Below, piece after piece: positions 4,696 to 22,175 of a stretch of 64,000 nucleotides of DNA. The stretch lies in assembly GCA_903869265.1 (NCBI GenBank), contig CAIPYE010000001.1, positions 248,001-312,000 of the forward strand. Direction: 5' to 3'. Source of the DNA: an uncultured delta proteobacterium. GTDB lineage: Bacteria > Desulfobacterota > Desulfobulbia > Desulfobulbales > Desulfurivibrionaceae. The stretch's first letter is position 1; each line of letters starts with the position of its first letter. The notes beneath the pieces are model-generated. The model was given only the letters and a program-made list of their open reading frames with translations. It was not told the origin of the DNA and did no database searches. Both the position numbers and the translations under genes were made by a program.

Positions 4696-4707
4696 CGTGC
4701 GCAACAT

Positions 4708-4823
4708 TGTAGCCGAGATCCGTTGCCAAAAACGGATGCGGGGGACCCAGAGTATGGGGCGTATTCCTTAACCAGATAGGGCACTTCCAAGCCCGAGCCC
4801 GTCAGCTAACCTCGTAGGCATTT
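4708..4823 (+). promoter_or_regulatory. c-di-AMP riboswitch (ydaO/yuaA type)
   Basis: The hallmark blocks of this class occur in order: GGGGGACCCA (4740-4749), GGGGCG followed by ATTCC (4756-4767), an AGGGCAC/GCCCGAGCCCG region, then GTCAGCTAACCTCGTAGGC (4801-4819). The 5' GCCGAG and 3' CTCGTAGGC close the outer stem. It lies between a sigma-70 promoter and a K+ importer of the family first linked to this riboswitch. In known cases c-di-AMP binding turns expression off. Confidence 0.9.
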
Positions 4824-4847
4824 GGATGGGCAATGGTCCGCGTCGAG

Positions 4848-7050: not shown

Positions 7051-8040
7051 GTGACCCTGTCCAGTATAAAGAAAAAACAACTGCGCGATGCTGTCGGCAA
7101 GTTCAGCAAGGCCAATATCCTGGTGCTCGGCGACATCATTGTCGATCACTTCATCTGGGGCTCGGTTTCCCGGATCTCCCCGGAGGCGCCGGTGCCGGTG
7201 GTGGATGTCACCCACGAAAATTTGCTCCTTGGCGGGGCAGCCAATGTCCTGCACAACATCTATGCCCAGAACAGCCGGGCTTCGCTTTGCGGTCTGATCG
7301 GCAACGACGCCATGGGCGACCATCTCCTCAGCCTGCTGGCGGAAATCGGCTCCCCAACGGCCGGAATTGTCCGCACCTCCAACCGCCCCACCACCCTCAA
7401 GACCCGAATCGTGGCCCAGCACCAGCAGGTGGTGCGCTTCGACCGAGAAAAAACCGGAGAACCCAGTCCGGAACGGCTGGCGGAGATCTGCCGTTTCATC
7501 GACGACAATCTGGAGAGCTTTGACGCAGTCATCGTCTCGGACTACAACAAGGGCATGATCAACCTGCCCCTGATGGATCACCTGCGGACCCGGCTCAAGA
7601 AACGGGACATCCCGCTGATCATCGACCCCAAACCCCAGCACCCGGAGCGCTTTCGCGGGGCCACCATCATCACCCCCAACCTGCACGAGGCCGAGCGCAT
7701 GGCCGACATGGCCATCAAAACCGAGAAAGACCTCGAGACCGCAGCCCATATCCTGCAAAAAAAGCTGGCCAGCAACGCGGTCCTCATCACCAGGGGCGAG
7801 GCGGGCATGGCCCTGTATGAAAAGGGGCAACCCCTCTTCACCATCCCCACCATGGCCAAGGAGGTGTACGATGTCACCGGCGCAGGGGACACGGTGATCG
7901 CCGCCCTTGCCCTGGGGTTGGCCGTTGGCCTCACCGCTGCCGACGCCGCCACCATCGCCAACTTCGCCGCCGGCATCGTCGTAGGCAAGGTGGGCACGGC
8001 CACCGCCTCCACCTCAGAGCTCCTTGAGGCAATCGGATGA
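7051..8040 (+). CDS. hldA: D-glycero-beta-D-manno-heptose-7-phosphate kinase (RfaE domain I)
   Basis: A PfkB-family kinase of 329 residues. It phosphorylates heptose 7-phosphate at C1 in the ADP-heptose pathway for the lipopolysaccharide inner core. The N-terminal substrate motif (LGGAANVLHN) and C-terminal catalytic motif (DVTGAGDTVIA) are intact. There is no adenylyltransferase domain, so this is the single-domain form and hldC must be elsewhere. The GTG at 7051 is chosen because AGGAG lies seven bases before it; an in-frame ATG at 6967 would add an unlikely N terminus. Its stop overlaps the yicC start by four bases. Confidence 0.9.
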   Translation: MTLSSIKKKQLRDAVGKFSKANILVLGDIIVDHFIWGSVSRISPEAPVPVVDVTHENLLLGGAANVLHNIYAQNSRASLCGLIGNDAMGDHLLSLLAEIGSPTAGIVRTSNRPTTLKTRIVAQHQQVVRFDREKTGEPSPERLAEICRFIDDNLESFDAVIVSDYNKGMINLPLMDHLRTRLKKRDIPLIIDPKPQHPERFRGATIITPNLHEAERMADMAIKTEKDLETAAHILQKKLASNAVLITRGEAGMALYEKGQPLFTIPTMAKEVYDVTGAGDTVIAALALGLAVGLTAADAATIANFAAGIVVGKVGTATASTSELLEAIG

Positions 8041-8918
8041 AAAGACCGTTGAGCATGACCGGCTATGGCCGGGGCGAAGTGGCCGGGACCAGAAGCTGGA
8101 CCGTGGAGGTCCGCTCGGTGAACCACAAGTTTCTTGATCTGAGCATCAAGATCCCCCGCAAGTATCTGGGCCTTGAAGAGCGGATCAAAAAAGAGATCAC
8201 CGCCCACTACAGCCGGGGCCATGTGGATGTCTACCTCAACCCCGGCGCCGAGGCGGGGGACACCATCCGCTTGGCAGCCAACCTGCCCCTGGCCCGCGAT
8301 TATTATCAATGTCTGGAGGCGATCCGCCAGGATCTCTCCCTGCCAGATCCCCCGACCCTGGCCATGATCCAGAACTACAAGGAGGTCATCGTTTCCCACG
8401 AGGAGGAGGAAGATCTCGATGCTGTCTGGCCGCAGGTCTTCGAGGCTCTTAGCCAGGCGCTGAACATGGCACAGGACATGCGGGCTCAGGAAGGTGCGGC
8501 TCTCAAAGCCGAGCTCGGCCAACGGTTGCAGGAGTTTGCCAAGACCGTGGAGACCATTGCCCAGGATGTCCCCGAAATCGTCCAACGAAGGACCGAGAAG
8601 CTCAAGGAGCGGTTGGCCATTCTCCTGCAAGGGGTTGATCTTGACCCCCTCCGCTTGGCCCAGGAAGTGGCGATGATGGCCGACAAGGGTGATGTCACCG
8701 AAGAGGTGGTTCGCCTCCGTAGCCACATCAGCCAGTTTTCCGGCTTTCTTGCAGCGGACGAACCCGTGGGCCGCAGGCTTGACTTCCTCCTCCAGGAATT
8801 CCTGCGGGAGATCAACACCCTGGCCTCAAAGATCAGCGATGCCCCCACCGCCCATCTCACCGTGGAGTTGAAAACCGAGGTGGAAAAGCTCCGGGAACAG
8901 ATTCAGAATATTGAGTAA
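8037..8918 (+). CDS. yicC: YicC-family endoribonuclease
   Basis: 293 residues with the N-terminal motif MTGYGRGE and VEVRSVNHKFLD, and the C-terminal DUF1732 region (EVVRLRSHISQF and GRRLDFLLQEFLREINT). The family consists of metal-dependent endoribonucleases; E. coli YicC is implicated in small-RNA turnover. The acidic/histidine-rich C-terminal segment carries the presumed metal ligands. It is coupled to hldA by a four-base overlap and followed by the DUF370 gene and gmk, a very common arrangement. Confidence 0.9.
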   Translation: MKRPLSMTGYGRGEVAGTRSWTVEVRSVNHKFLDLSIKIPRKYLGLEERIKKEITAHYSRGHVDVYLNPGAEAGDTIRLAANLPLARDYYQCLEAIRQDLSLPDPPTLAMIQNYKEVIVSHEEEEDLDAVWPQVFEALSQALNMAQDMRAQEGAALKAELGQRLQEFAKTVETIAQDVPEIVQRRTEKLKERLAILLQGVDLDPLRLAQEVAMMADKGDVTEEVVRLRSHISQFSGFLAADEPVGRRLDFLLQEFLREINTLASKISDAPTAHLTVELKTEVEKLREQIQNIE

Positions 8919-8927
8919 GGAACAACC

Positions 8928-9215
8928 ATGTCAGACCAAAGAATGATCAACGTGGGCTTTGGCAACGCCGTACTGGCCGGCAGGGTGCTGGCGGTGGTGA
9001 ACCCAAAATCCTCCCCCATGAAAAAACTGCGGGAAGAGGCCAAGGAGCAGAAACGGCTCATCGATGTCACCGAAGGGAGGAGAACCCGCTCCATCATCAT
9101 CCTGGACAGCAACCATGTGGTTCTCTCCTCGGTGCAGCCGGAAACCATCACCCTGCGCTTCATGGCCTCCTACGACCGGCACGATGAAGAGCTGCCGGAA
9201 AAGGCGAGTAAATGA
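8928..9215 (+). CDS. DUF370/RemA-like small regulatory protein
   Basis: 95 residues matching the DUF370 family ([20 protein letters not shown] and [16 protein letters not shown]). In Bacillus the homologue RemA is a DNA-binding regulator of matrix genes; outside Firmicutes its role is not settled. It overlaps gmk by four bases and follows yicC by nine, so it is in the same operon. Confidence 0.88.
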
Positions 9216-15249: not shown

Positions 15250-16473
15250 CTACTTTGTTTGCCCTTTATTGAAGAGATCGGCAAAGGTGGCCATGGGCTT
15301 GGTCTCCTTTTTCTTTTCCGCGATGTACTGACGGAAATCCCCCTGATTTTCACCCTCGCCCGAAACCTTGTCTTTTTTGCCGCCTTCCTTGCCGGTTTCC
15401 TGACCATCAGCCTTGGCAGGCATGGGCAAGGAGAGGGACAGCCGCTTTTTCTCTGGGTCCACACTATCGATCTTCACCTCAAGGGCATCCCCCACCTGGA
15501 CAACCTCACGCGGATGGCTGATGCGTCGTCCCGCGCCCAGCTTGGAGATATGCACCAACCCGTCGATGCCTGGGGCAAGTGAGACAAAGGCGCCGAATTC
15601 CGTGAGGCGGACAACCTTGCCGGTGACAACGCTGCCCTCGGAGAACATGGTGTTGATCTCGTCCCAAGGGTTGGGCAGGGAATCCTTGAGGCTGAAGGAG
15701 TAGCGGTCCTGGTCCCAGTCCAGCTTGAGCACGGTGACGGTCACTTCCTGGCCCACGGCCAGCCGTTCGTGGATATCCTCAATCCTCCCCCAGGCAATCT
15801 CGGAGACCGGGATCAGACCCTCGATGCCGCCGATATCGACAAAGGCGCCGAAATCGCGGATGGAGGTGATGACACCCTTGACGGTCTGGCCGATGGCCAG
15901 GGATTCCTGCAGCCCCTCCTTCTGCTGGGCCCGTTCCTCCTCAAGCAAGGCGCGGCGGGAAACCACGATATTCTTGCCATGCTCGCTGAATTTGGTGACC
16001 CTGAAGGCGAACTTCTTGCCGATGTACTCCTCAGCGTTTTCGATCCTCCGCATCTCCATCTGGGAAAAGGGGCAAAAGGCCCGGACGCTGCCGGAGAAGC
16101 GGACATCAAAGCCGCCCTTGACTTCGGCCGTCACCGTGCCCTCAACCGGGATGCCGTTCTGGCAGGCCTCGTCAAGATGGCCGGCCACCGCGCCGCCGCT
16201 CACCTTGGCGGTGAACAACCGTTCGTTCCTCTTCTCGGAAAGAAAATAGACCTGTACCCGGTCGCCTTCCGCCACAGTCAGGTTGCCCTCACCATCGGTG
16301 AACTCGTTTTTGGCCACCGACCCTTCGCTCTTGGCGCCCAGATCAAGAAAGATCCATTCCTTGGCAATACGCACCACGGTCGCCTCGATCTTCTGGCCCG
16401 GCCGCAGCCGCTCCTTGGTGGTGGCTGCGGTTTCCTGAAACATTTCGGCAAAGCTTTTATCATCATCGGTCAT
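15250..16473 (-). CDS. S1 RNA-binding domain protein (four S1 repeats, RpsA-like)
   Basis: About 407 residues. Four S1 folds: about 20-90, 105-170, 180-255 and 270-345; the third and fourth carry the clearest signatures (GVITSIRDFGAFVDIGGIEG and GKVVRLTEFGAFVSLAPGID). A charged lysine/glutamate-rich tail follows. It is shorter than classic six-domain ribosomal protein S1, so it is an S1-like RNA-binding or translation factor. The ATG at 16473 has an AAGGG site eight bases upstream; in-frame starts at 16479 and 16515 exist. Confidence 0.85.
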   Translation of the reverse strand: MTDDDKSFAEMFQETAATTKERLRPGQKIEATVVRIAKEWIFLDLGAKSEGSVAKNEFTDGEGNLTVAEGDRVQVYFLSEKRNERLFTAKVSGGAVAGHLDEACQNGIPVEGTVTAEVKGGFDVRFSGSVRAFCPFSQMEMRRIENAEEYIGKKFAFRVTKFSEHGKNIVVSRRALLEEERAQQKEGLQESLAIGQTVKGVITSIRDFGAFVDIGGIEGLIPVSEIAWGRIEDIHERLAVGQEVTVTVLKLDWDQDRYSFSLKDSLPNPWDEINTMFSEGSVVTGKVVRLTEFGAFVSLAPGIDGLVHISKLGAGRRISHPREVVQVGDALEVKIDSVDPEKKRLSLSLPMPAKADGQETGKEGGKKDKVSGEGENQGDFRQYIAEKKKETKPMATFADLFNKGQTK

Positions 16474-16545
16474 TGTCATCACCCTTACCACACGTTGTTT
16501 TTCCATGATTATCAACTACGAAACGGAAACTTCTCTCTGTTCGTT

Positions 16546-17058
16546 TCAATCCTCGCCAATGGCAGAACCGATTTCCACCCTTTCCACCTCTCTTGTTTCG
16601 CATTGCAGGATGCAAAATCCGGGCTGCTCGTCCTTGCCCAACAGCTCTCCGGGATTCACCAGCAGGCAATCGCCAACCTTTTCCACCTGATAGCGATGGT
16701 TATGGCCACAGCACACCACATCGAACATGCCCTGGCAGGCAATACCCCTGGCCATCTGCGGATAATGGGTAAAGGCAATCTTGAGCCCCCCCGCCTCCAC
16801 CGCGCCCAGAATGCCGTGGTGACTGATGGTGGGAAAGCGGAGTCCGCACGACTGCGAGATGACATGCTGGTCGCCGATGTTGTTGCCGTAAATCAGATGC
16901 ACCGCCCCGCTGAAGCGGGCAAGTTCATCGAGCATGAACGGCGAGATCAGGTCGCCGCAGTGGATGATCATGCTCACGCTGTAGGCATTGCAGTATTTCA
17001 CCGCAGCCCGGAGGTTGAGGATATGGTCGTGGGTATCGGAGATGATCGCGATTCTCAT
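16546..17058 (-). CDS. YfcE/MJ0936-family metallophosphoesterase
   Basis: 170 residues with the calcineurin-like motifs in order: ISDTHDH, HCGDL, YGNN, HYPQM, and GHNHRY. Family enzymes hydrolyse phosphodiesters with Mn2+ or similar; the physiological substrate is unknown. Its ATG at 17058 overlaps the cobD stop by four bases, which settles the start over a longer frame from 17097. It is the last gene of the cobU-cobD run. Confidence 0.88.
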   Translation of the reverse strand: MRIAIISDTHDHILNLRAAVKYCNAYSVSMIIHCGDLISPFMLDELARFSGAVHLIYGNNIGDQHVISQSCGLRFPTISHHGILGAVEAGGLKIAFTHYPQMARGIACQGMFDVVCCGHNHRYQVEKVGDCLLVNPGELLGKDEQPGFCILQCETREVERVEIGSAIGED

Positions 17059-18146
17059 ACCTTTTCTCCAAGGATTCCGGCAAGCGCGGCCAAGCACCGC
17101 TCATTGCGCTCGGCATCTTGCAGCGAAATTCGGAAATAATGGCCACCCAGGCCGGTGAAATTGCTGCAGTCCCGGATCATGATGCGCTGGCGAAGCATAC
17201 CCTCCCGCAACCGGGGTGCGGTCATTGAGCCGGTCAAACGGCAGAGTATGAAATTCGCCGAGCCAGGCACCACCTGCACCCCTGGCAGCGCAGCCAACCG
17301 GGCGACAAAACCCGGCAGGGCTTGAGCAAGATACTCGCGCACCGCCTGAACATAGGTATCGCCATGCGCCAGAAGATACTCCCCTGCCACCTGGGCCATG
17401 CGGTTCACTCCCCAGGGCTTGCGCCGCTCCGCGAAACGGGCCATCTTTTCCTCGCTGGCCACCAAAAAACCAAGACGCAGCCCGGGAATACCGTAAATCT
17501 TCGAGGAGGAACAGAGCAGAAACAGATTGGCAGGCAGGGGAAACCCGGCCAGGGATGGTTCCCCCACAAAGGGCAGGTACGATTCGTCGACGAGAAATTC
17601 CGAAGCCGGATGGGCGAGGATGAAGTCGAGCAGCACACGGCTTGACACCACCCTGCCCGTAGGGTTGTTGGGGTTGCAGAGAAACACCAGCTCGCCCCCG
17701 GTGAGCCGGGCAGACAACCGGGTGAAATCAAGGGCGAAATCCTCGTCGGCTTTGAGAGTAAAAAAATCAACGCTCAACCCGGCCCACTGGCTGGCTGTCT
17801 GGTAATCAGCATAGGTGGGGGCAATGATCAGGGCACGCCTGGACTGGACGCCGGTCGGCACGGCATAGATGAATTCGGTGGTGCCGTTACCCGCCAGGAC
17901 CTGCTGCGGGGAACAACCGTACTTCCCGGCAAAGAGCCTGACCAGGGTTTCGCTACCGCTTTCCGGCAGAAAGCTGATCTCCGGTAATCTTTCAACCAGT
18001 GCTTCCCGCAACCCCGGCACCATACCCAGCGGGGTGAGATTGCTGCTCAGGTCGACGAGGTCGCCAACGCCACAGCCCAGCCGTCTGGCCATGGAGAGAA
18101 TATCCCCGCCGTGAACGCCCGGGGCGCTGATCGTGGTGGCATCCAT
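17055..18146 (-). CDS. cobD: Threonine-phosphate decarboxylase CobD (PLP enzyme)
   Basis: 363 residues, fold-type I aminotransferase. It begins with HGGDI, seen in CobD, and has LVDLSSNLTPLG, NPNNPTG, and the PLP lysine in SSSKIYGIPGLRLGF. CobD makes (R)-1-amino-2-propanol O-2-phosphate for the cobalamin side chain. Histidinol-phosphate aminotransferase is the close alternative; the neighbouring cobU favours CobD. One base separates it from the cobU stop. Confidence 0.86.
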   Translation of the reverse strand: MDATTISAPGVHGGDILSMARRLGCGVGDLVDLSSNLTPLGMVPGLREALVERLPEISFLPESGSETLVRLFAGKYGCSPQQVLAGNGTTEFIYAVPTGVQSRRALIIAPTYADYQTASQWAGLSVDFFTLKADEDFALDFTRLSARLTGGELVFLCNPNNPTGRVVSSRVLLDFILAHPASEFLVDESYLPFVGEPSLAGFPLPANLFLLCSSSKIYGIPGLRLGFLVASEEKMARFAERRKPWGVNRMAQVAGEYLLAHGDTYVQAVREYLAQALPGFVARLAALPGVQVVPGSANFILCRLTGSMTAPRLREGMLRQRIMIRDCSNFTGLGGHYFRISLQDAERNERCLAALAGILGEKV

Positions 18147-18147
18147 T

Positions 18148-18699
18148 TCAACCCTTGAGCCGCAGGGGCAGACCGGCGGCCACGAAAATCACCTGCTGGC
18201 AGACCAGAGCCATTTGCTGATTGGTCCAGCCGGCCAGATCACGAAATCGTCGGCCCATAGCCGATTCCGGCACGATGCCGAGGCCGACCTCGTTGGCAAC
18301 CAACACCACCGAAGTGTCAAGACCTGCAACCGTCTTGCACAACCGGGCAACCTCCCCCTGGATTTTTTCGTCGCTGAAATCCTGCATCATCATATTGGCA
18401 AGCCACATGGTCAGACAATCCACCAAAAAAACCTCTGACCCGGTTTCGTTTCTTTCAAGCACCCCGGCCAAATCCAGCGGCTCTTCGACAGTCAGCCAGC
18501 CGGCGCCCCGGCTCTGTAGGTGCAGGGCGATGCGCTGGTCCATCTCCGCGTCGTTGCGCGCTTCCAAGGTGGCGACAAAGACCTTATCGGAAAAGTTTTC
18601 GCTAACCCAATGCTCGGCGTAGCCGCTCTTGCCGCTACGGCAGCCGCCGAGCACCAGCTTTTTCATGGGGAGCTGCATGGCCCCTGTATTTTCCATCAT
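18148..18699 (-). CDS. cobU: Adenosylcobinamide kinase / adenosylcobinamide-phosphate guanylyltransferase
   Basis: 183 residues. P-loop GGCRSGKSGYAE, RIALHLQSR with the guanylylated histidine, LVDCLTMWLANM, and ANEVGLGIVPE are all CobU/CobP signatures. The enzyme activates adenosylcobinamide for attachment of the lower ligand. It overlaps the upstream radical SAM gene by four bases, so the B12-using enzyme and two B12 assembly enzymes are translated as one unit. The start may be internal (ATG before KKLVLGG). Confidence 0.9.
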   Translation of the reverse strand: MMENTGAMQLPMKKLVLGGCRSGKSGYAEHWVSENFSDKVFVATLEARNDAEMDQRIALHLQSRGAGWLTVEEPLDLAGVLERNETGSEVFLVDCLTMWLANMMMQDFSDEKIQGEVARLCKTVAGLDTSVVLVANEVGLGIVPESAMGRRFRDLAGWTNQQMALVCQQVIFVAAGLPLRLKG

Positions 18700-20540
18700 A
18701 ATCCGTTTCCTGGGGCAGTGGTATGCACCGCCAGGGCAAGGTACCTTGTTCCCTGGACAAAGAGCAACTGTTTTGCCGTGAGTTCCTCAAGAAAAGTTAC
18801 CAGCTTCGCCGTGCCCAGCTTGGGAAACAAGCGGGCAAGCTCAGCGAATTCGACCACGTTTTCGCAGGCAAGATAGATGGCCCGGGAAGTTCCGCGCAAC
18901 CGATGATGCAGGGTTGCCTGCCCGGGCAGTTCCTGGCGGATAATCAGCAGATTTCCCGCATCCCGATAAGAAAGCGGCGGGACCAGATGGGCAGGGCAAC
19001 GCCTTGCCTCATGAAACCGTTGCCAATCGCGGATTTTCTTGACCACCGGCTGCCAGAGCTTGCGCTGATGCGCCCGATCCCCGCGATAGTCGTTGATCAG
19101 CAGGGTCTGGCCCGGCAAAATCTGCGGCGGGAAGAGCTTGCGATTATGGGGGTGCTGAACAATGGCGCGGATGCCGTAATCACGGGGATTCTCGGCAACC
19201 TCGCAACCATACCCGAGAAAAAAAGACGCAGCGGTCAGGGGGGTGAAAGGCAGGACAAAATCAAGGTTGGCCAGGGTCTCCTGCACCTCCGCCTCGGAAG
19301 ATCCAGGAAAGCCGGTGATCAGGTTCCCGTCCAGCCGAATGCCCAAGGCAACACTCTCCTTCATCAGGGCCAGATTTTCCATAACCGTGGCCCCCTTGCG
19401 CATCCGGCCAAGAAGCCCCTGACTGAGGGCCTCGATTCCGGCCTGCACCGCCACCAGCCCGCCCTGCCGGTAACTTTTGAGCGTTTCGCCCCACTGGTTA
19501 ACCCGAATCTCGGCAAAAAAACGGAAATCCTTTTTGCTGGAGGCCATCTTGACAAAAAAGACCATGGCTTCCCGGTCGGGCAAGACGTTATCCGTAAAGC
19601 TGAAATCCAGACAACCATGGTGCTCGGAAAGGCTCAGCACCTCCTGCTCCATCTGCGCCGCAGTCTTGCCACGATAGCCGCGCCATTGGAGGTTAAGATT
19701 GCAGAAGGTACACTTCCCCCACCAGCAGCCCCGAGAAAATTCCACCGGCAGCTCCGGCACAAAGGGCTCCCCGGAAAACTCCCGGCGCAGGTCAAGAAAA
19801 TAATCACCGTAATCTGGGACCGGCAACTCGGAAAGAGTCTTGAACTGACGGCCGGCGAAAGCCTGCCCTCCTGCCTGCGGCTTTCGGGCCATGACTTGGG
19901 GGATCAGGGTGGACTGCCGTCCAGCCAACACCTGGCAGAGGTTCGCAAGCGGGATCTCCCCTTCGCCATGCACCACATAATCGAGCCAGGGAAAGACCGT
20001 GAGCAACGAGCTGCCCATTTCCGCCACGCAGGAAGAACCGCCAAAAACAATGGGCAGCTGCGGCTGCAACGCCTTGAGCCGCTTGGCCGCCACCAGCGAG
20101 GCCAAAAGCTGATTGAAGCAGACGGAAAACCCCGCCAGATCGAACTGCTCCCAATTCTGCCGAGCAAGCCAGTGTTGCAGATGACCATCCACCTGCTGCC
20201 AAAGATATTCTATCGAAAGTGCGCCCGCAGCTTTGCAGTGTTTGAGCCTTTTGACAAGAAATCCACGCAGCACCTCGCGTTGCTCCGGAAACAGCAACCC
20301 GGCGTAAAGCCCCTCGCAGAGCCAGACATCCTGGGAGATTTCCCGATAAAGCTCAAGGCCAATGGCCTTGGCCAAGCCCAGATACGGATGCAAACAGGCA
20401 ACCTGCACATCCGGATCCGCTTGGGCCAGATAGCCCTTGAGCGCCCCCAACTGGACAGAGGGCCGGTTGAAAAGCGCCCAGGGCATGGAAATCAGCCCCA
20501 GACGAAACGGAAGATGCGGCTGACCTGTGTTCTCAACCAT
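18696..20540 (-). CDS. Cobalamin-binding-domain radical SAM protein (RiPP-maturation / C-methyltransferase-like)
   Basis: 614 residues. N-terminal B12-binding fold (about 10-215; SMPWALFNRPSVQLG, IVFGGSS, VVHGEGE). Radical SAM barrel about 262-480 with cysteines 272, 277 and 280 in SRGCWWGKCTFCNLN, a CX4CX2C spacing rather than CX3CX2C. A C-terminal region of unknown role follows. RGCWW is typical of the family annotated as RiPP maturation radical SAM protein 1, whose copies usually have CX7CX2C. No convincing precursor peptide gene is next to it. Coupled to cobU by a four-base overlap. Substrate unknown; methylation is inferred from the family. Confidence 0.82.
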   Translation of the reverse strand: MVENTGQPHLPFRLGLISMPWALFNRPSVQLGALKGYLAQADPDVQVACLHPYLGLAKAIGLELYREISQDVWLCEGLYAGLLFPEQREVLRGFLVKRLKHCKAAGALSIEYLWQQVDGHLQHWLARQNWEQFDLAGFSVCFNQLLASLVAAKRLKALQPQLPIVFGGSSCVAEMGSSLLTVFPWLDYVVHGEGEIPLANLCQVLAGRQSTLIPQVMARKPQAGGQAFAGRQFKTLSELPVPDYGDYFLDLRREFSGEPFVPELPVEFSRGCWWGKCTFCNLNLQWRGYRGKTAAQMEQEVLSLSEHHGCLDFSFTDNVLPDREAMVFFVKMASSKKDFRFFAEIRVNQWGETLKSYRQGGLVAVQAGIEALSQGLLGRMRKGATVMENLALMKESVALGIRLDGNLITGFPGSSEAEVQETLANLDFVLPFTPLTAASFFLGYGCEVAENPRDYGIRAIVQHPHNRKLFPPQILPGQTLLINDYRGDRAHQRKLWQPVVKKIRDWQRFHEARRCPAHLVPPLSYRDAGNLLIIRQELPGQATLHHRLRGTSRAIYLACENVVEFAELARLFPKLGTAKLVTFLEELTAKQLLFVQGTRYLALAVHTTAPGNGL

Positions 20541-20584
20541 TCCTGCTGCTCTTAATTATTAGAAAAAAATTTTGCCCCTGGATC

Positions 20585-20691
20585 AAAAACCGCTCAGCAG
20601 TGCTGCAGATGCGCGAAAGAGGCGTGCGAAATGTGCTATTGCACATGAGCAGACCGATGACAATGCAGATGCGGTGCTGCTGAGCGGTTTT
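20585..20691 (-). repeat. Large inverted repeat between lolA and the radical SAM gene
   Basis: A 16-base arm AAAAACCGCTCAGCAG (20585-20600) has its exact reverse complement just before lolA's stop (ending 20691). Between the arms are a second hairpin (ATGTGC/GCACAT) and two copies of TGCAGATGCG. Read on the minus strand the far arm ends in CGGTTTTTG, so it can act as a terminator with a branched loop of about 75 bases. Confidence 0.7.
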
Positions 20692-21366
20692 TTATTGCTC
20701 GATGATTTCTGTGCCCAGCGGCGGGGTGAAGACAAAGGTCTCAGGCGACACCGATTCGTTGCGGGTGATATTGGAAAAGGCCAGATCGGTTATGCTGCCG
20801 AAATGATCGACAATCTCAAGACGGCGGATCATGAAATTCTCGTCGATCCAGACATGGAGATAATCCACCTGCGGATGCGCGGTCTTGGGCACGAGCTTGA
20901 TCGCCTTCAGACTCGCATCCCCCTGCCTTTCCGGGGGCAACACCTTGAAATCGCGGACGATATTCCCGGTGCCGACAAAGAAGGCATAGGTGACATCGGA
21001 GTTGATATATTGGGAAACCGGCTGCACGATCATCTGGGCGGAACCGGCGATATACATGGAAACCTTCTTGCCGTCGCTGATCAGCACCTGTCGATCCGGC
21101 GTCTGGTAATCCCAGCGGATGCGCCCGGGCTTGGAAATCACCACCTTGCCCGCACCAAGCCGCTTGCGGGTGGTCATGGGCACAGAGGTCGACTGCTTGA
21201 AATCGGCGGTCATGGTCTTGGTTTCTTCATAACGGGACTGAAGTTTTTGGGCAAGCTCCAGCGGCGTCAGGGCAGCACATCGGCCCGGTCCGGGAAAACC
21301 CACCAATAACGCGAGACCAACCAGCAGGGAGAGCAATGGTTTGACAGAGAGAACAGTACGGATCAT
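20692..21366 (-). CDS. lolA: Outer-membrane lipoprotein carrier protein LolA
   Basis: 224 residues with a signal peptide (about 1-31) and the LolA fold: LQSRYEETKTMTADFKQ, KRLGAGKVVISKPGRIRWDY, DGKKVSMYI, and a C-terminal region with FSNITRNESVSPETFVFTPP. It carries lipoproteins across the periplasm. It overlaps murI by four bases. Confidence 0.9.
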   Translation of the reverse strand: MIRTVLSVKPLLSLLVGLALLVGFPGPGRCAALTPLELAQKLQSRYEETKTMTADFKQSTSVPMTTRKRLGAGKVVISKPGRIRWDYQTPDRQVLISDGKKVSMYIAGSAQMIVQPVSQYINSDVTYAFFVGTGNIVRDFKVLPPERQGDASLKAIKLVPKTAHPQVDYLHVWIDENFMIRRLEIVDHFGSITDLAFSNITRNESVSPETFVFTPPLGTEIIEQ

Positions 21367-22175
21367 GACAAGTGACTCCTATTGAAAATATCAGAGGCAA
21401 CCTTTTCCAGGGCAAGGGGACGGCCAAAGACCTTTCGGGCTATATCGACAGCCGCATCGGTTACGTCGGAAACATAATAATGGCTGGTCCCGTTGCGCTC
21501 AAGCTGCTGCTCAATGGCCGGGTTGCTTTCCAAAAAAAGGGCCAGACTTTCCGCCACCACCTCGGAGGAATCGATAATCGCCACCCGCTTACCGATGCGC
21601 GCCTGAATCAGATCCTTAAGGAGCGGATAATGGGTGCAGCCCAAAACAAAGGTATCCACCTGCCGCAGCCGAAGCGGCTGGAGATAGCGGCGAAGGATCA
21701 TCTTGGTCTCCCGCTTGTTCAGCCAGCCCTCCTCAACCAAAGGCACCAGAAGAGGACAGGCTTGGGAATACACGGTGTATTCGGGTTGCTCGGCCAGGAT
21801 CTTTTTTTCATACACCCCGCTCTTGATGGTGGCCCGGGTGCCGATCACCCCGATACGACCGGAACGGCTGGTGGCTATGGCCTTATTCACCGCCGGGGTG
21901 ATGACCTCAAAAATGGGCACGGGAAACTCCTGCTGGATAATCTCGGAGGCCACGCTGGCTGCGGTATTGCAGGCGATAATGATGATCTTTGCCCCCTGAC
22001 CGAGAAGAAACTCCGTATTCTGCCGGGCATAGGCAATAATGGTTTCCGGGCTCTTGGAGCCATAGGGGGTTCGGGCCAGGTCGCCGAAATAGGCAATGCG
22101 GTATTGCGGCAGAAGCTGCTCCACAGCCTTGGCCACCGTCATCCCACCCACGCCCGAATCAAAAATGCCAATCAT
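21363..22175 (-). CDS. murI: Glutamate racemase
   Basis: 270 residues. Catalytic cysteines are in ACNTAAS and LGCTHYPLL, with DSGVGGMTV at the start. Supplies D-glutamate for peptidoglycan. First gene of a coupled run murI-lolA; a nested hairpin lies 80 to 130 bases upstream of the start. Confidence 0.95.
   Translation of the reverse strand: MIGIFDSGVGGMTVAKAVEQLLPQYRIAYFGDLARTPYGSKSPETIIAYARQNTEFLLGQGAKIIIIACNTAASVASEIIQQEFPVPIFEVITPAVNKAIATSRSGRIGVIGTRATIKSGVYEKKILAEQPEYTVYSQACPLLVPLVEEGWLNKRETKMILRRYLQPLRLRQVDTFVLGCTHYPLLKDLIQARIGKRVAIIDSSEVVAESLALFLESNPAIEQQLERNGTSHYYVSDVTDAAVDIARKVFGRPLALEKVASDIFNRSHLS

Follow-up and report, generated by a model that had tools for sequence, protein, structure and literature searches.

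The stretch of DNA considered here, 64,000 nucleotides from an uncultured member of the Desulfurivibrionaceae (phylum Desulfobacterota, class Desulfobulbia) and referred to throughout as the window, carries on its minus strand the gene order murI–lolA–rSAM–cobU–cobD–yfcE–S1, in which rSAM encodes a radical S-adenosylmethionine (SAM) protein and cobU and cobD encode two enzymes of cobamide assembly. The operon that joins rSAM to the cob genes is real, inherited and old in the class, and its two parts are separable, each surviving without the other. Computation establishes the family and fold class of the enzyme, the order of the genes, their conservation and the separability of the parts; the features concerned are listed below.

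18696–20540, minus strand: rSAM, 614 amino acids, a stand-alone B12-type enzyme related to rSAM_ocin_1 (TIGR03975, PF04055, predicted fold)
19896–20513, minus strand: rSAM N-terminal domain, putatively of cobalamin-binding type, residues about 10–215 (fold alignment with B12-bound OxsB)
19701–19727, minus strand: 4Fe-4S cysteine motif C–WWGK–C–TF–C (CX4CX2C), rSAM residues 272–280 (sequence)
18729–18980, minus strand: predicted rSAM C-terminal winged-helix domain, PqqD-like or like the recognition element (RRE) of ribosomally synthesised and post-translationally modified peptides (RiPPs), residues about 521–604 (model)
18148–18699, minus strand: cobU, adenosylcobinamide kinase/guanylyltransferase (PF02283, PRK05800)
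17055–18146, minus strand: cobD, L-threonine-O-3-phosphate decarboxylase (best family TIGR01140, below its cut-off; structure 1LC5)
16546–17058, minus strand: YfcE/MJ0936-type metallophosphoesterase (TIGR00040, 86.7 bits against a cut-off of 56.25; MJ0936 structure)
15250–16515, minus strand: S1-domain protein with four S1 stretches, the block's constant downstream gene
20692–21366, minus strand: lolA, the constant gene upstream (PF03548)
21363–22175, minus strand: murI, glutamate racemase (PF01177)
20578–20692, minus strand: imperfect palindrome between lolA and rSAM, a terminator-like dispersed repeat (conserved pairing)

A sequence-only reading of this DNA had placed rSAM, cobU and cobD at 17055–20540, with a four-base overlap at the first joint and one base at the second, and all of this holds: bases 18696–18699 are common to rSAM and cobU, the stop TGA lying inside ATGATG, and the single base 18147 separates cobU from cobD. 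A further joint, absent from that reading, lies downstream, where the ATG of the yfcE-type gene at 17058 gives a four-base overlap with the cobD stop; murI and lolA also overlap by four bases, and the gap of about 150 bases between lolA and rSAM contains the long palindrome. Judged by candidate cobU starts, the four-base rSAM/cobU overlap recurs at 16 of 27 loci and at 12/12 close loci (at least 80% identical), the start codons being inferred and one locus, L014 and L172, having been drawn twice; since it recurs in this way, the overlap is more than chance. Overlap of rSAM with cobD was seen at five of the seven loci that have cobD only.

Matches to the rSAM protein at E 1e-20 were found in 162 of the 257 class genomes, a few of them weak or partial, with presence and absence called on assemblies that are partly incomplete. 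From these matches 60 loci were chosen, about one or a few per genus, so that the proportions given here are not those of a random sample; 58 have 1.5 kb upstream and 49 have 3 kb downstream, some ending at contig edges. One or both cob genes stand beside rSAM at 22 of the 60 (both at 13, cobD only at seven, cobU only at two), and such linked loci occur in 10 of the 12 sampled families, with none in families f6 and f7. On the gene tree, 19 linked and 15 unlinked rows require three changes over 34 rows, and because three changes suffice the linkage is taken to be inherited. The 38 loci with neither cob gene beside rSAM count against the preferred reading given below. The neighbours counted over all 60 are lolA at 51, murI at 49, the S1 gene at 49, yfcE at 26, cobD at 20 and cobU at 15.

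The two parts of the operon have also been lost one at a time. CobU loci were fetched from genomes in which no rSAM is listed; of the 14 counted, four (L254, L256, L257 and L265) keep the block murI–lolA–cobU–cobD–yfcE–S1 with rSAM missing, and the other ten hold a different CobU elsewhere. Six more of the 20 regions fetched were left uncounted, namely a 2-kb stub, one from a genome with a weak rSAM match (G214), two from genomes that do carry rSAM, and two that belong to the window's own genome. Conversely, family f2 has rSAM in 11/12 genomes and CobU in 0/12. Outside the class, same-strand cobU or cobD was found at 0/32 loci (29 of the stand-alone, or solo, kind of relative together with L017, L022 and L023), and an aminotransferase relative lies on the opposite strand at two of the 29. 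The coupling of rSAM to cobU and cobD proposed in the sequence-only reading thus survives as an inherited operon but not as a necessary link between consumer and supplier, since the genes have been lost independently and lolA, murI and the S1 gene are the more constant neighbours.

The rSAM protein belongs to TIGR03975 (rSAM_ocin_1, the RiPP maturation radical SAM C-methyltransferases), scoring 356.3 bits against a cut-off of 281.85 over positions 3–606 of the 606-position model, in agreement with the earlier suggestion that RiPP-type enzymes are its nearest kin, and PF04055 recognises the radical SAM domain at 47.2 bits. There is no close sequence in the PDB (best E 0.0064). A structure model was built from 16 homologues, with a mean predicted local distance difference test score (pLDDT) of 80.4 and a predicted template modelling score (pTM) of 0.81, and its Foldseek neighbours are the B12-dependent radical SAM enzymes TsrM (E 3.9e-13), OxsB, TokK and MgmA, together with the B12-fold relative AprD4. 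Foldseek and VIA-align together place the predicted fold nearest to OxsB, TsrM, TokK, CysS and MgmA, VIA-align giving Z 18.0 to B12-bound OxsB (root-mean-square deviation (rmsd) 4.4 Å over 415 residues, spanning model residues 8–516) and Z 15.7 to MgmA (9ccb). These matches support a B12-type radical SAM fold for the predicted structure, and the call of the sequence-only reading is upheld at that level. Two results weigh on the other side: the Pfam scan of the protein detected the radical SAM domain only, with no B12-binding model at E 0.001, and the close fold matches also include AprD4, which its title describes as a diol dehydratase rather than a methyltransferase. As Pfam detects only the radical SAM domain, cobalamin binding by the N-terminal domain is inferred from the fold, through the match of this region to B12-bound enzymes, although likeness of fold does not demonstrate function.

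The putative cluster motif reads C272–WWGK–C277–TF–C280, and all three cysteines are invariant in 16/16 aligned relatives. CX4CX2C is present at 81 of 82 sampled loci, at least three of which were drawn twice, so the spacing is not a sequencing error. The sequence-only reading had expected its case to fail if relatives were usually unlinked from cob genes and resequencing gave a normal CX3CX2C; most relatives are indeed unlinked, but none of the solo proteins used for the tree has CX3CX2C, and the recurrence of CX4CX2C leads us to reject that correction. As a mark of novelty the motif fares less well. The first loop has four residues in 50/67 solo rows and 9–19 in the other 17, while among 18 rows from RiPP loci it has seven in 12, four in four and nine in two, and spacing four versus any other takes three changes on the gene tree. 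GenD1, a B12-dependent radical SAM methyltransferase, is printed with Cx4Cx2C in the portion of the source available (PMC4340712), and PoyB and PoyC are printed, in the available portions of theirs, with Cx7Cx2C (PMC5682303, PMC11285071), which the window protein does not share. On these printed motifs, and with RiPP-type paralogues at spacings of four, seven and nine, CX4CX2C is neither new nor a feature that excludes a RiPP-type enzyme. The peptide RDCWWGKCTFC was also found in 54 open reading frames (ORFs) of more distant radical SAM proteins, although the peptide was itself part of the scan by which they were fetched. The loop itself (residues 267–289) is modelled at pLDDT below 50, and therefore no structural statement is made about it.

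Residues 505–614 of the rSAM protein, modelled alone, reach pLDDT 85 and follow the order b-b-b-a-a-a-b-b. The predicted model thus has the bbb-aaa winged-helix order by which the available text of one source (PMC12710340) defines an RRE, and the authors of RRE-Finder, in the part of their paper at hand, state that C-terminal RRE fusions occur in proteusins (PMC7470986). VIA-align ranks leader-bound TbiB1 first and second (Z 8.2 with rmsd 2.2 over 75 residues, Z 8.0 with rmsd 2.1 over 73); TigE comes further down at Z 7.4 and a heterocyclase at Z 6.6. When the C-termini of 67 solo and 18 RiPP-locus proteins are compared as profiles, the two sets prove homologous (hhalign probability 99.35, E 5.9e-21), and every one of the 67 solo C-termini gives a TIGR03975 match with E no worse than 1. 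Several observations pull against an RRE: winged-helix regulators follow less than one Z unit behind TbiB1 (YodB at 7.8, others below), Foldseek returned nothing at E 0.001 or better for this model, PqqD was matched weakly and in only 1/67 solo and 2/18 RiPP C-termini, and the assignment depends on a predicted model. With such regulators so close in score and no Foldseek hit at that level, the model is best described as suggestive of an RRE-like domain of the peptide-binding type.

Two kinds of relatives can be distinguished. In the phylum, 67 of 395 genomes have a TIGR03975 match above the cut-off, with at most three candidates scored per genome, so that counts per genome are lower bounds; among the matches listed, 16 from 11 genomes score 576–662 bits, the rest 284–403, and none lies between 403 and 576. 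The high-scoring kind is RiPP-type, with Nif11-type precursors about 2 kb from the rSAM gene in four of its 11 genomes (G270, G342, G355 and G370). A quick tree, built from 95 rows and having long outgroup branches, gathers the 18 rows from RiPP loci into a single group (support 100) and places the window protein outside it, in another group of 50 solo rows that all have spacing four (support 94); solo rows with a longer loop branch separately. The window protein belongs to a lineage of enzymes that stand alone, have no precursor genes and are usually encoded between lolA and an S1-domain gene. No partner gene is common to the 37 loci examined outside the class, where only lineage-specific FBPase-like and HtpX-like genes, recognised by eye, recur at 7–8 of the 37.

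The search for a precursor bears on what the enzyme might act upon. NHLP-type precursors were found in 0/34 solo genomes examined, the window's included, and Nif11 gave one distant hit at the cut-off (G128) and eight weaker ones; the window's genome has no NHLP or Nif11 precursor above the cut-off. When 7608 small ORFs within 5 kb were clustered over the 60 class loci and further relatives, none proved constant beside rSAM, and a precursor in cis was rejected; that neither substrate nor precursor came to light also weighs against the preferred reading. The small ORFs that do recur and could be recognised are FmdB-type, DUF370-type or strand artefacts, read by eye from the sequence, and were rejected as precursors.

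Nif11-like hits in class genomes, nine in all and weak or borderline, include one in the window's own genome, and L276 lies outside the family by sequence. Apart from the question of precursors, these hits include a small Nif11-like protein of 73–76 amino acids (from the first-start ORFs of L275, L278, L280 and L281; loci L273:4333–4479, L274, L275 and L277–L281) with a conserved NPxKRxIWW(V/T/F) tail that looks like a functional C-terminus, and nif-like genes adjoin it in L273, L275 and L278. As a substrate supplied in trans it was rejected, these three loci lying in nif clusters (nifE/nifN-like, by eye).

The cobU product, the only CobU found in the window's genome, matches PF02283 at 193.4 bits and PRK05800 at 187.2 bits, above the cut-off of 161. 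For CobD, TIGR01140 is the best family at 272.3 bits, which is below its cut-off of 290.55, and seven further CobDs from the block also fall just under it at 257–279 bits. The best solved match is the Salmonella L-threonine-O-3-phosphate decarboxylase 1LC5, with 203 bits versus 141 for the best chain named HisC, and the genome has one CobD candidate and, elsewhere, a separate HisC that is above its own cut-off; HisC was rejected on these two grounds. Across the class, CobU hits fall into two score groups relative to the window CobU, with block copies at 185–355 bits, separate-locus copies at 93–135 and a gap between them.

Elsewhere in the window's genome CbiB adjoins a CbiP-like gene, and a cobalamin riboswitch lies near genes for a TonB receptor, an ORF with periplasmic-binding and CbiZ domains, and FecCD/ABC components. 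No CbiL above the cut-off was found in this genome, where a 59-bit hit is a TP-methylase/HemD fusion. By the general logic of the pathway, CobU and CobD would plausibly complete a route of cobinamide salvage and remodelling in this organism. CbiL is present in 12 of the 17 genomes of the genus, which tells against such a view of the operon at large, and for that reason salvage alone does not explain the linkage. Two loci of the genome are recorded for their own sake: a single ORF at L248:12316–14319 (minus strand) joins a BtuF-like periplasmic-binding domain to a CbiZ adenosylcobinamide amidohydrolase, with TonB-receptor, FecCD and ABC genes beside it and a cobalamin riboswitch close by, and a cobalamin riboswitch match of 65.6 bits at L249:7393–7533 (plus strand) stands just upstream of an ORF at 7618–9186 (plus strand) with radical SAM and SPASM domains, possibly a B12-regulated SPASM radical SAM gene.

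The palindrome between lolA and rSAM is imperfect, about 115 bases long with A-run and T-run ends, and its 34 pairs include seven with compensatory change over 11 sequences. It is kept at this position in most close relatives, is absent from L011, and has copies at other loci (L271:746–898, L126:12447–12579, L116:190–326 and L117:12791–12964). It is a dispersed terminator-like repeat that is not in Rfam, and being dispersed it was rejected as an operon-specific regulator; a search with Rfam showed no regulatory RNA in the leader upstream of rSAM. Far from the block, at 4701–4835 (plus strand) of the window, lies a c-di-AMP riboswitch (ydaO/yuaA leader) of 79.2 bits.

The reading we prefer, to which we give an even chance, takes the enzyme to be a class-B radical SAM C-methyltransferase whose peptide or protein substrate comes in trans; in part of the class, its operon would also yield the enzymes of cobamide assembly. 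What we infer here is the cofactor, the reaction, the peptide nature of the substrate and the joint expression of the genes. The window protein would be a stand-alone B12-dependent C-methyltransferase of the same rSAM_ocin_1 stock as PoyB and PoyC. Its three cysteines would hold a [4Fe-4S] cluster that cleaves SAM, cobalamin in the N-terminal domain would be methylated by a second SAM, and the 5′-deoxyadenosyl radical would abstract a hydrogen from the substrate, to whose carbon the methyl group would then pass from methylcobalamin. The RRE-like C-terminal domain may grip the segment by which a ribosomally produced peptide or protein is recognised, and this substrate is presumably encoded elsewhere since there is no precursor nearby. 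The gene is inherited vertically within the housekeeping block murI–lolA–rSAM–yfcE–S1, and in many class families it is directly followed by cobD, or by cobU and cobD, so that a B12 user and two cobamide-salvage enzymes would be made from one message. Such coupling is a convenience and not a requirement.

For the coupling itself, inherited order is about as likely as function. On a view whose probability we put a little short of even, a stable chromosomal block carries rSAM, cobU and cobD as passengers, and any functional link between them is limited to shared transcription: lolA, murI and the S1 gene are more frequent neighbours than cobD or cobU, the block persists without rSAM at four of the 14 CobU loci, family f2 keeps rSAM with no CobU, and no linked locus was seen among the 32 outside the class, but the overlapping starts recur with both cobU and cobD and the linkage has persisted across 10 of 12 families. 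The substrate is a separate matter, and it is rather unlikely that the enzyme acts on a small molecule such as a lipid, sugar or cofactor. The fold neighbours OxsB, TokK, CysS and AprD4 do act, by their titles, on small molecules or carrier-bound groups, OxsB being known for a substrate of this type, and no precursor was found in cis; the C-terminal domain shared with the RiPP-type clade and its RRE-like character, as well as TIGR03975 membership over the whole length, point instead to a peptide. A role in cobamide metabolism, for example in altering the corrin or the lower ligand, is suggested by the direct operon with cobU and cobD and by a weak match to BzaD (TIGR04385, 28.9 bits), yet the BzaD cut-off is 450 bits, rSAM persists without CobU in family f2 and, outside the class, it lies well away from cob genes, which makes this very improbable.

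Extending the preferred reading of C-methylation in trans, one could imagine by analogy that a RiPP-type B12-dependent radical SAM enzyme turned housekeeping enzyme in this class and in other lineages of the phylum, its RRE finding one conserved protein or peptide to be C-methylated much as by Mmp10/MgmA, and that the operon acquired the last steps of cobamide assembly so that cofactor and user are made together; this fuller account is speculative and we hold it to be improbable.

The B12-dependent radical SAM C-methyltransferases of rSAM_ocin_1 stock have mostly been investigated where they belong to gene clusters of the antibiotic-like kind. A relative that is present in single copy, is inherited vertically and keeps a predicted peptide-recognition domain but has no precursor gene suggests that sulfur-cycle bacteria modify a protein or peptide in a way yet to be discovered. 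With its operon comes a natural and testable case of a B12 consumer made with cobamide-salvage enzymes, for which genomes that have kept only one of the two parts can serve as controls. Searches of the open-licence literature listed no paper recognisable as dealing with an rSAM_ocin_1 enzyme that stands alone, or with an rSAM–cobU–cobD operon.

Among known systems, the RiPP-type clade of TIGR03975 with Nif11 precursors (loci L223–L233) is whole-length homologous to the window protein and has in common with it the SRGCWW...CxFC motif and a homologous C-terminal domain, whereas the window and solo proteins score lower (356 bits for the window protein versus 576–662), carry a CNLNLQW signature and are encoded in single copy in a housekeeping block without a precursor gene. 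PoyB and PoyC, proteusin B12-dependent radical SAM C-methyltransferases, appear to share family and domain plan (B12-type, radical SAM and C-terminal RRE), a relation drawn from descriptions in the available part of one source (PMC7470986), but are encoded in a RiPP cluster and differ in the motif spacing given above. GenD1, a C-methyltransferase of gentamicin biosynthesis, is likened to the window protein by its printed Cx4Cx2C only, and differs in having an aminoglycoside substrate and pathway. Mmp10/MgmA, the B12-dependent radical SAM protein C-methyltransferases of methyl-coenzyme M reductase, belong to a different substrate world, and under their family model TIGR04014, whose cut-off is 360 bits, the window protein scores no more than 37; they offer the model of a stand-alone enzyme acting on a housekeeping protein, to which the fold match with MgmA adds a structural likeness.

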